This document shows, in pieces, positions 57,432 through 61,433 of a stretch of 64,000 nucleotides of DNA. A program made the translations under genes and the position numbers. The notes under the pieces are model-generated. The model searched no databases, had not been told where the DNA came from, and was given only the letters and a program-made list of their open reading frames with translations. How positions within the stretch are numbered: the first letter of the stretch is position 1; each line of letters begins with the position of its first letter. The stretch spans positions 186,001-250,000 of the forward strand of contig NZ_CP036269.1 of assembly GCF_007744675.1 (NCBI RefSeq), read 5' to 3'. Origin of the DNA: Gimesia alba. Lineage in GTDB: Bacteria; Planctomycetota; Planctomycetia; Planctomycetales; Planctomycetaceae.

Positions 57432-60400
57432 ATGTATCAGAAAACCGGATGGCTCATCGGCCTCATTCTCATGGTCGGGTGTGGCGAACAGCCGAAACCC
57501 GATGAACAGACACAAACCACTCCCAGTCAGACACCTGCGATTCAGACGCCTGCCAGTCAGGCAAAGCCTGAGCCAGCACCAGTGCAGGAAACTGTTACTC
57601 CAAAAGAGAAAACGGCTCCCCCCAAAAAGGACTCTACCGGAGATGACTATGTCGATAAGGTCATCGCCGAACATCAGGAGAAAACGTTCCAGAGGTCATT
57701 AAACGATCTGAAATCAAAGGATAGCGATCAGCGCGGCATGGCCGTCGCCAGGATGGTCACGTCCAAGATCGACCCCAACCGGGTAGTCGCCGGTCTGTTG
57801 AATGTCGTGGATGACAAGGATGAACGACTGGCAAAGATGGCGCGGGGTTACATTCAGTCACACACGTTCAAATCCAAAGGTCAGCTGGTCGATTTCTACG
57901 CAGACTGGTGTGGCCCCTGTCGGATGATGAAGCCGGTGGTGAAAGAACTTCAGGACGAGGGTTACCCGGTCATTCAGGTGGACGTCGATCAGAATCCGGA
58001 TTTGAGTTCGCATTTTTATATCACCAGCATTCCGACATTTGCGCTCATTGTCGACGGATCGATGCGGCAGCGCAGGATCGGCGTGGTCGATAAATCAGAA
58101 TTACTGAAACTGCTGAAAGAGATCCCCAAACCAGATAAGAAGGATCAGGAGAAGGCGTATGTGACCGATCCGAAGCTGAAGGTTTATGGCGCCCTGGTGA
58201 CGATGCAGTCGGAGAACCCCTGGTATCGGTATGAGGCGAAGCAGCAGTTAAAGCAAGCTTCCTTGCCCGCGCTGATTGAGATCCTGCAGGATCCGGGGCA
58301 GCGCACCGTCTTTCGCGAATCGGTGATGCAGGTCCTCGAATCGTTCATGAAGTCAGAAGATCAGGCAACGCAGATCGTCAAGGTGATGACGGAGATCATG
58401 AACGACCCGAAGCAGTCGGAGGAACTGCGGGGAATGGCTGTCATTTTCCTCTCCCGCCACGATCCAGCACGCAGTAGTGCGCTCGATGAAAAACTGGTGG
58501 CCCTGTTAAAGGCATCCCGTCCCGAAGCGTTACAGGCAGATGTGGCAGAAGAAATTGGTAAACGCAAAATCAAGCAGGGATTGCCGGTACTGATTGATAA
58601 GGTGAAGCACCTGGATCAGGCTCCCGAAGATGTGCGAACAGCGTATATCTCTGCGTTGGGAGAATTCGGTGCCGCAGCGGATACCGCGGTGCCTGCTCTG
58701 CTGACCGCCTATACGAACTATCCTGATGAGAGCGATGCCATTTCCGAAGCGCTCGAGGAGATCTGTCCCGATTCCAAAGCGGCCACGGAGACGTTGATCA
58801 AAGTGCTCGCAGAAGATAACGAAGAGGCCAGATCCTTGGCGGTCTCGCTGCTGGATCAGGCCGAGTATATCCGCACGGCCAGCAGTTCCCTGCAGAAACT
58901 GTTGAACGATCCCGATCCTGAAGTGAGTCTCAAAGCGGCGAAACTGCTGGAGAAAATCGGCGGGGCGGACCAGAAGATTGTTACTGCACTCGTCAAACAA
59001 CTGGATGAAGGGGAAGTGGACTGGGAAATCCGATTCGCGCTGCGGACCGCCTGGCGATACTCTTATCCCGCATTGACCAAAATCATCTGCGATCCTCAGA
59101 GTACTCCCCAGGCCAAAGAGAATGCGATGTCGGTGCTCAGGGATTTTCATCATCGACCCAGTCCGGAAGAACAGGCTTCGCTGGAACAGGCTTTAGGCCA
59201 GAAAGACCTGCTGACGAAACAGTGTGCCGCGATCATGCTGTCGTCCTCTGAATCTCAGCAGGCACAGATAAATTCCCTGCTCCTGGAAGCAGTCAAGTCT
59301 GACAACGAGGGTGTGCGCCTGCACGCAGCCCGGGCATTGGGCAGTCGTCAGAAGTCCCTCTCAAAACAGCAGCAGGAGCAGGCGAAGACAGAATTACTGA
59401 AGTTGTTGAAGGAGTCCGATTCCCGTGTCAGTGAAGCCGCCGGGTCTGCCCTTGCCAATTTCGAGTTAACTGAGGATGAGTTGAAAACGGTGGTCGGATC
59501 CCTCGAGAATCCGGACCTGCAGTACTCTGTGATGAGTATTCTCAACAGGCAGAAAACACTGCCGGGCTCGGTCGTTCCATTGCTGACCGCGAAATTAGTG
59601 AGCGATGAAATCGATGAAGATCTGGTCAATCAACTGACTGCTGTTGTGAGTCGCGCAGGTAAGCTGGCCCTGAAAAGTCTGGAAGCGGTGGTCTCGAATA
59701 CCGAGGTGGATCCGGAGCGCCGCGCCAAAGTGATTCTGGCACTCAGTGAGGTCACGGCTGACGAACCAGAGCTCGTGAAATATCTTCAAGCATTTCTCAA
59801 GGAGAAACAGCCTGAACCATTACAGATGGCGGCTGCGATTGCTGTCGCAGGCCAGGTCGAGGATAAGCAGTCCCTGGTGCCTCTATTGCTGACTGGTGTG
59901 CAAAGTGAAAACTGGCAGATCAAACAGTTCGCCGGTGATGCATTGACGAATGTCGCAGGAGATTCGCCGGAAGCGCTCAAACTGGTGCAGTCACAATTGA
60001 AAGAACTGGAAGCGAAGCAGCAATCTGCAGTGCTGGTTCTACTCTGCCAGGACGAGCGACTGCGAGATAAATTCAGTTCACAACTGCTCTCCCAGGTTCA
60101 AGGTAGGGATCAGGAAAAGGATGCCTACCAGCTCAGGGCGGCGATCAGCTACCTGGTCCGTGGCGATAGGGAGGGCACCGCGATCAACAAACTGCTTGCA
60201 GAGCAGGATCAGGAGATCGTGCAGCAGACATTACGCACCCTGGGAAATAATGCAGACGGCGTTCCCAAAGCCGTCCTGCCGGAACTGGAAGCGTTATTGA
60301 AAAACGCGCCGCCGAAGACCCGTTTACTGGCAGCGTTCTGCCTGTTGAAAGCGGGATCTGAGGATCAGGGGCTGCTGACGATTGTGCGTAACGCGCTGGA

Positions 60401-61433
60401 CTCGGATGATGAAGAACTGAGTCAGCAGGCGGCCTACGGTCTGCAGATGGCCGGCCCTTTAAATGAACAGTGGACGCCGGTCTTGATTGAGTTAATGCAA
60501 AATCGGAATTACCGGCAGGCGTCCATTGAACAGTTGGGAGAGATGGGAGCTGACGCGAAATCAGCAGTGCCGGCTCTGATTGAGCTGCTGGGGACAGTCA
60601 GTTATTACGAGGATACCGCCTCTGCCCTGAGAGAACTGGGCCCGTCTGCTGCTGAAGCGATTCCGGCACTGCGAGAGATGCTGACGAATGAGCGAACCAT
60701 GTATGCGGCTGCTCAGGCGCTGGAGAAGATTGAAGAAGACCATCAGCCGACGATCGATATTCTGGCGCAGAATCTCGATCAACCGAATCTGCGCGGGGAT
60801 GCTGCCTATAGCCTGGGAGTCTTTGCCCCGGATTCTCCCGAGCGGATCGAACCCCTGTTGTTGAAGGTGGCCAGCGGTGAGAATCAGTATGACCGTGAAA
60901 TGGCGCTTCGTGCCGCCGGCTCTTTGAAGTCAAAAGCGGTGGTCACGATGCTGATCAAAGTGCTGGAAGAAAATGACCAGGATCTTTCTGACCTGGCTGC
61001 CCTGTCGCTGGGAAAACTGGCCATTGAAGCGGATCTGGCGGTACCGGCCTTGATGAAATCGATGCAGGACTCGGATGAACGCGTGCAATATACCTCAGTG
61101 CAGGCCCTGGGTAAGTTTGGTGCCGACGCTGCGCCTGCGGTGCCCGCTTTACTCAAAGCCTTGGATGACAAATCCATTCGCCTGTCCGCTGCTGGTTCTT
61201 TAGGCCGCATCGGCGCACCGGCGCAGGAGGTCATTCCCCGCCTGATCAAAATGCTGGATGATCCGCAAGAGCGGCGTGCAGCGCTGGAAGGACTTAAGCA
61301 GTTCGGACCACTGGCAGAATCCGCGGTCCCCCGCTTGAAGGAACTGGAGCAGGAGTCTCGGAACTATGAACTGCGACAGGTAAAAGCGACCCTCAAAGCG
61401 ATTCAGTCGCCGGAGGAGAAAGAGAAGAAATGA
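57432..61433 (+). CDS. Thioredoxin-domain HEAT-repeat lipoprotein
   Basis: A 1333-residue lipoprotein: signal helix and lipobox LMVGC (C17), then a proline/glutamine-rich linker to about 68. Residues about 75-145 look like helical (HEAT-like) repeats. At about 148-232 a thioredoxin domain is inserted, with WCGPC at 159-163, the cis-proline loop TSIPTF (P201) and the FYADWCGPC strand-turn. From about 245 to 1325 a long array of HEAT-like repeats of 30-40 residues follows (for example VPALLTAYTNY, AVPALIELLG, AVPALLKALDDKSIRLSAAGSLG). Thioredoxin motifs give disulfide reductase or isomerase activity, and HEAT solenoids bind proteins. A surface-anchored redox scaffold is an attractive reading. 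The thioredoxin/HEAT fusion is unusual to me. The upstream gap has a possible leader ORF and hairpins. Confidence 0.85.
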   Translation: MYQKTGWLIGLILMVGCGEQPKPDEQTQTTPSQTPAIQTPASQAKPEPAPVQETVTPKEKTAPPKKDSTGDDYVDKVIAEHQEKTFQRSLNDLKSKDSDQRGMAVARMVTSKIDPNRVVAGLLNVVDDKDERLAKMARGYIQSHTFKSKGQLVDFYADWCGPCRMMKPVVKELQDEGYPVIQVDVDQNPDLSSHFYITSIPTFALIVDGSMRQRRIGVVDKSELLKLLKEIPKPDKKDQEKAYVTDPKLKVYGALVTMQSENPWYRYEAKQQLKQASLPALIEILQDPGQRTVFRESVMQVLESFMKSEDQATQIVKVMTEIMNDPKQSEELRGMAVIFLSRHDPARSSALDEKLVALLKASRPEALQADVAEEIGKRKIKQGLPVLIDKVKHLDQAPEDVRTAYISALGEFGAAADTAVPALLTAYTNYPDESDAISEALEEICPDSKAATETLIKVLAEDNEEARSLAVSLLDQAEYIRTASSSLQKLLNDPDPEVSLKAAKLLEKIGGADQKIVTALVKQLDEGEVDWEIRFALRTAWRYSYPALTKIICDPQSTPQAKENAMSVLRDFHHRPSPEEQASLEQALGQKDLLTKQCAAIMLSSSESQQAQINSLLLEAVKSDNEGVRLHAARALGSRQKSLSKQQQEQAKTELLKLLKESDSRVSEAAGSALANFELTEDELKTVVGSLENPDLQYSVMSILNRQKTLPGSVVPLLTAKLVSDEIDEDLVNQLTAVVSRAGKLALKSLEAVVSNTEVDPERRAKVILALSEVTADEPELVKYLQAFLKEKQPEPLQMAAAIAVAGQVEDKQSLVPLLLTGVQSENWQIKQFAGDALTNVAGDSPEALKLVQSQLKELEAKQQSAVLVLLCQDERLRDKFSSQLLSQVQGRDQEKDAYQLRAAISYLVRGDREGTAINKLLAEQDQEIVQQTLRTLGNNADGVPKAVLPELEALLKNAPPKTRLLAAFCLLKAGSEDQGLLTIVRNALDSDDEELSQQAAYGLQMAGPLNEQWTPVLIELMQNRNYRQASIEQLGEMGADAKSAVPALIELLGTVSYYEDTASALRELGPSAAEAIPALREMLTNERTMYAAAQALEKIEEDHQPTIDILAQNLDQPNLRGDAAYSLGVFAPDSPERIEPLLLKVASGENQYDREMALRAAGSLKSKAVVTMLIKVLEENDQDLSDLAALSLGKLAIEADLAVPALMKSMQDSDERVQYTSVQALGKFGADAAPAVPALLKALDDKSIRLSAAGSLGRIGAPAQEVIPRLIKMLDDPQERRAALEGLKQFGPLAESAVPRLKELEQESRNYELRQVKATLKAIQSPEEKEKK

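Follow-up and report, generated by a model that had tools for sequence, protein, structure and literature searches.

Thioredoxin 1 (TrxA) is a free cytosolic protein, whereas the TlpA, CcmG, ResA and HCF164 proteins are extracytoplasmic and tethered, carry a CxxC motif and are plausibly fed by carriers of the DsbD/CcdA type. The latter are small, and TlpA, CcmG and ResA have an insert in the fold. NHLRC2 and SOQ1 join a thioredoxin-like domain to an NHL β-propeller; the motif of NHLRC2 lies in the cleft between the two domains, and its bacterial homologs have no conserved neighbors (PMC6107167).

The window, by which we mean the whole 64,000-nucleotide stretch of Gimesia alba DNA analyzed, holds a gene whose product can be set against each of these systems. 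It shares with TrxA the fold (solved structure 3ziv), the WCGPC motif, the Asp and the cis-Pro, but lacks the β1-α1 elements that TrxA has. Like the TlpA group it appears to be extracytoplasmic and tethered, yet its anchor is a predicted lipid, about 32 HEAT-type repeats are attached, and its strand-helix spacing is that of a classical thioredoxin. As in NHLRC2 and SOQ1, a thioredoxin-like domain is combined with a large repeat region, but those proteins have a β-propeller instead of an α-solenoid, a CCINC motif and no lipoprotein anchor. The parts are known and the arrangement appears to be new: the earlier note on this DNA knew of no well-described system with such a layout, and our searches of open papers, which cannot prove absence, likewise returned no matching description.

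Architecture of the HEAT-thioredoxin protein

The open reading frame starts at its first ATG and encodes 1333 residues, in the order lipoprotein signal, linker of about 55 residues, two HEAT repeats, thioredoxin domain and about 30 HEAT-type helix pairs. Its features are as follows.

57432..61433, + strand: complete gene for the 1333-aa HEAT-thioredoxin-HEAT lipoprotein (open frame, Pfam, orthologs, colinear relative in genome G152)
57432..57482, + strand: predicted lipoprotein signal peptide, residues 1-17, with lipobox M-V-G-C17 (Cys17 and Gly18 invariant in six members)
57486..57656, + strand: low-complexity Pro/Gln/Thr/Lys linker, residues ~19-75 (the least conserved part)
57675..57866, + strand: two N-terminal HEAT-type repeats, residues ~82-145 (four helices, pLDDT 86-90)
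57870..58124, + strand: thioredoxin domain without β1-α1, residues ~147-231 (Pfam, strand/helix order, 3ziv superposition)
57906..57920, + strand: active site W159-C160-G161-P162-C163 (invariant in six members)
58029..58034, + strand: Ile200 and cis-Pro201 (Pro invariant; Ile, or Val in G152)
58128..61430, + strand: long HEAT-type solenoid, residues 233-1333, ~30 helix pairs (HEAT_2, helix list, pLDDT)
58764..58766, + strand: solenoid cysteine Cys445 (invariant in all six members)
59223..59225, + strand: solenoid cysteine Cys598 (invariant in all six members)

The earlier note had read the gene as encoding a thioredoxin domain inserted in a HEAT-repeat lipoprotein, and the fusion of the two in one lipoprotein frame is confirmed, with Pfam matches far beyond chance. 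The thioredoxin profile PF00085 matched residues 148-229 (E = 2.8e-19; 69.5 bits versus a cutoff of 23.5), and HEAT_2 matched 12 stretches over most of the nonthioredoxin sequence (E = 9.8e-61). We rejected a chance motif because profile, structure and conservation agreed. Promoter and terminator scans at the gene gave signals at the level of shuffled sequence.

The signal, MYQKTGWLIGLILMVGC, terminates at the lipobox cysteine and, by reading and conservation, has the n-region, the h-region and the lipobox Cys near residue 17-21 of a bacterial lipoprotein. The lipobox is kept as L/I-V-G-C in the five relatives, whose signals end in LLVGC or TIVGC, and the residue directly after the Cys is Gly in all six members. 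A lipid anchor, as the earlier note had supposed, is predicted from this motif. The linker that follows differs in length between members.

We modeled residues 81-1280 with an alignment of five full-length relatives, a HEAT-only paralog and 77 thioredoxin domains. A four-sequence model had given a thioredoxin pLDDT mostly below 50; the deeper alignment resolved the fold. The mean pLDDT was 87.1, and the pTM was 0.65, so the placement of the thioredoxin domain relative to the far solenoid is not readable from the model. The helix and strand order puts the thioredoxin domain between HEAT repeats 2 and 3, with some 63 helices following it up to residue 1280. The word "inserted" therefore holds, and a plain N-terminal thioredoxin fusion was rejected; a HEAT/Arm match was also found in the corresponding N-terminal part of the G152 relative.

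The remainder is identified as a HEAT solenoid by its recurring HEAT matches and by helices that come in pairs. Designed alphaRep HEAT proteins were the closest solved sequences to the C-terminal part, and residues 1011-1280 (270 modeled residues) superposed on an alphaRep with a Z score of 20.2; this fold is shared but generic and is uninformative on any partner. CAND1 and the karyopherins, which came up as PDB matches to the whole model, had TM-scores no higher than about 0.3 and were set aside as generic solenoids.

The thioredoxin domain shows the order β-α-β-α-β-β-α in the predicted model (strand 151-156, helix 161-175, strand 180-184, helix 189-194, strands 202-207 and 210-216, helix 221-228). 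Thioredoxins were the closest solved sequences to residues 147-231, and model residues 146-231 superposed on 3ziv over 86 residues (Z = 13.3; rmsd, 1.4 Å), beginning at 3ziv residue 16. The first ~15 residues of the classical fold, β1-α1, are missing, and the last N-terminal HEAT helix may stand in place of α1. The CxxC, cis-Pro201 and the buried Asp154 are all present and invariant in six members, bearing out the claim that WCGPC and the cis-proline are intact. By the tests made, the protein belongs to the thioredoxin fold and the HEAT solenoids and lies outside three described groups: the classical thioredoxin equivalog TIGR01068 scored 82 bits against a threshold of 96.8, aligning from profile position 15; TIGR00385 of the TlpA/ResA/DsbE family scored 28.6 bits against 123.15, and the helix and strand order held no TlpA-type insert; and no NHL match, as in NHLRC2 or SOQ1, was in the Pfam list, which had HEAT instead.

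Distribution and conservation

We looked for the full-length colinear layout across related genomes and found it in six only, five in the genus and one in another family. Within the genus, 5 of 17 genomes carry the gene (the window genome and 4 of the 16 others), so most of its species are without it; the four orthologs are 90 to 92% and 75% identical to the window protein. The class sample gave 6 of 397 genomes and 2 of 185 genera. The relative from the other family (L152:7399-11262; 1288 aa) is 28% identical across 1331 aligned positions and has the lipobox, linker, N-terminal HEAT repeats, WCGPC thioredoxin and HEAT solenoid. A profile of the N-terminal part found the same six members and no others among 397 class genomes (185 genera), 150 own-family genomes and 392 phylum genomes; because G152 was part of the profile and only a handful of candidates was scored in each genome, this search may have overlooked very remote members. 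Searched against 95 genomes of its own family, the G152 protein matched at full length only itself. A search of genome contigs gave 80 loci, all aligned over the thioredoxin region.

The outcomes that the earlier note held to speak against its idea, homologs mostly without the thioredoxin domain or a mutated CxxC, were not what we found: every full-length relative retained the domain, with the CxxC invariant in all six. Colinearity over 1331 positions implies that the arrangement has been long kept or was passed on whole. A tree of the thioredoxin domains (88 to 94 columns) was poorly resolved, placing the genus clade and G152 apart without rejecting one clade (p-AU = 0.16). Given the colinearity, a single fusion origin for both families would be the simpler reading, on which the tree is undecided.

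In genome G013, a tandem paralog lies directly downstream (L118:12145-15075); its 977 residues lack a signal peptide and a thioredoxin domain and align with residues 383-1328 at 36% identity. The closest thioredoxin in the window's own genome belongs to an exported thioredoxin-trypsin protein (43% identity) that also lacks β1-α1. Its family (~540 to 700 aa) is likewise exported with the same short thioredoxin but differs in having Trypsin_2 as partner domain, no HEAT repeats and a wide distribution across the class. This protein (L002:1432-3213; C1:774420 region), a WCGPC thioredoxin joined to a trypsin-like peptidase, had no description in the papers searched. Three further large thioredoxin-bearing frames (L122:1497-4934, L123:1029-4412 and L124:2366-7300) were rejected as HEAT relatives, not being HEAT proteins. 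They are exported proteins of the same group bearing a secretin or secretin-N domain, and their thioredoxin domains have lost the first CxxC cysteine (WSSPC, WSRPC and WAGPC) and are apparently redox-dead.

The window gene was paired with each of its four orthologs in turn, and dN/dS was counted by the Nei-Gojobori method. The thioredoxin domain gave 0.047 to 0.076, the lowest segment in most within-genus pairs, and the block right after it was also low (0.05 to 0.16). Most HEAT blocks gave 0.15 to 0.35, the short N-terminal HEAT part up to 0.5 in one pair, and the signal and linker 0.4 to 0.7. The thioredoxin domain was also the segment best conserved in G152 (41% identity versus 18 to 37% elsewhere), and C160, C163, D154, P201 and G217 were unchanged at that distance. 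Cys17, Cys160, Cys163, Cys445 and Cys598 were invariant in six of six members; Cys553, Cys872 and Cys970 were not. The intact CxxC therefore lies in the domain under the strongest purifying selection of the whole protein, and this conservation is the strongest evidence that the CxxC is used. As the secretin-like proteins show by their losses, retention of the cysteines is not automatic in such fusions.

Redox supply and possible roles

On one flank in the window lie genes, on the opposite strand, for a Gfo/Idh/MocA oxidoreductase with a 3-keto-disaccharide hydrolase and a sulfatase; on the other, also on the opposite strand, lie an esterase-like hydrolase and a GDSL lipase. This neighborhood is common to the genus, and in G010 and G001 the same neighbors are present while the HEAT-thioredoxin gene is absent without remnant. 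The G152 locus has unrelated neighbors, and the neighborhoods compared (genus members and G152) held no partner gene conserved across families. In G014 an exported peroxidase gene (L119:5859-8240; PF00141; 794 aa) lies directly upstream on the same strand, the only such case among the genomes looked at.

Among the proteins of the window's own genome is a 783-aa DsbD (DsbD_N, DsbD_TM and Thioredoxin_7), so envelope reducing power is plausibly available. In this DsbD (L176:382-2730), Pfam leaves unscored what may be an additional N-terminal domain, which contains another pair of cysteines (QICNKGSC). The genome also encodes DsbB (L180; C1:4732974-4733246); DsbA (PF01323) and VKOR (PF07884) were not found in it. 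PF01323 is just one among the DsbA-like models.

We propose, with confidence that is evenly balanced, that the protein works outside the cytoplasm as a lipid-anchored reductase of the thioredoxin type, with a HEAT solenoid that would bind proteins and hold the predicted clients near the CxxC. It would be exported and then lipidated at Cys17, and the linker would give it reach across the envelope. Inner-membrane DsbD would maintain C160 and C163 reduced, the solenoid would capture one or a few client proteins, and the thioredoxin domain would reduce the disulfides of the clients so held. A Gly-Pro dipeptide and an Ile before the cis-Pro are typical of reducing thioredoxins (E. coli Trx versus DsbA or PDI), and because both are matched here we favor reduction. 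Against this count the WCGPC motif, which alone leaves the redox direction in the envelope unfixed, and DsbB, whose presence means that an oxidizing route exists. The patchy distribution disfavors a general housekeeping role.

The main rival, to which we give a low probability, is a redox-switched scaffold, in which a disulfide between C160 and C163, or one with Cys445 or Cys598, alters partner binding and so senses envelope redox. The invariance of Cys445 and Cys598 despite 28% identity between the families is consistent with such a switch, as is the exported peroxidase upstream in G014, but these cysteines may be mere buried core residues and the peroxidase is not kept beside other members. 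It is also conceivable, although quite improbable, that the module takes oxidizing equivalents from DsbB or shuffles disulfides, replacing the unfound DsbA: with DsbB present and PF01323 and VKOR not found, another thioredoxin-fold protein may serve DsbB. A role as the general oxidase is excluded, however, by the absence of the gene from most species of the genus; the active-site residues are of the reducing type, and other DsbA-like models exist besides PF01323.

The missing β1-α1, and the fact that further large exported proteins of this group carry thioredoxin domains with a broken CxxC, would suit a structural or docking role without catalysis. We judge this improbable, since both cysteines, Asp154 and the cis-Pro are invariant, dN/dS is low, and the thioredoxin-trypsin proteins of the same short form likewise retain WCGPC. 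Least probable, and in our view very doubtful, is a lineage-specific fusion with a dispensable role, whose thioredoxin domain would keep its activity without being tied specifically to what the solenoid does. The clean absence at the same locus in G001 and G010, the G013 paralog without signal or thioredoxin, and the count of 6 in 397 class genomes would fit such a fusion, but its colinearity between two families indicates that it was long kept or passed on whole.

The HEAT-thioredoxin lipoprotein is a fusion found in few genomes, retained over a long time and clearly under selection. It may even represent a new envelope redox class, in which a lipid-tethered solenoid captures a particular set of exported proteins and its built-in thioredoxin reduces or resets their disulfides, with the invariant solenoid cysteines in the relay, a prospect that we regard as unlikely. 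If the proposed reductase role is correct, this thiol-disulfide enzyme of the envelope would come with a large docking surface built in; among the Dsb and Ccm systems described in open papers, our searches turned up none with that layout. To our knowledge, few Planctomycetes α-solenoids have known roles. The frequency of α-solenoids in Planctomycetes is reported to be near the eukaryotic average (PMC3837014). A docking reductase of this kind would offer a handle on why Planctomycetes have so many of them.
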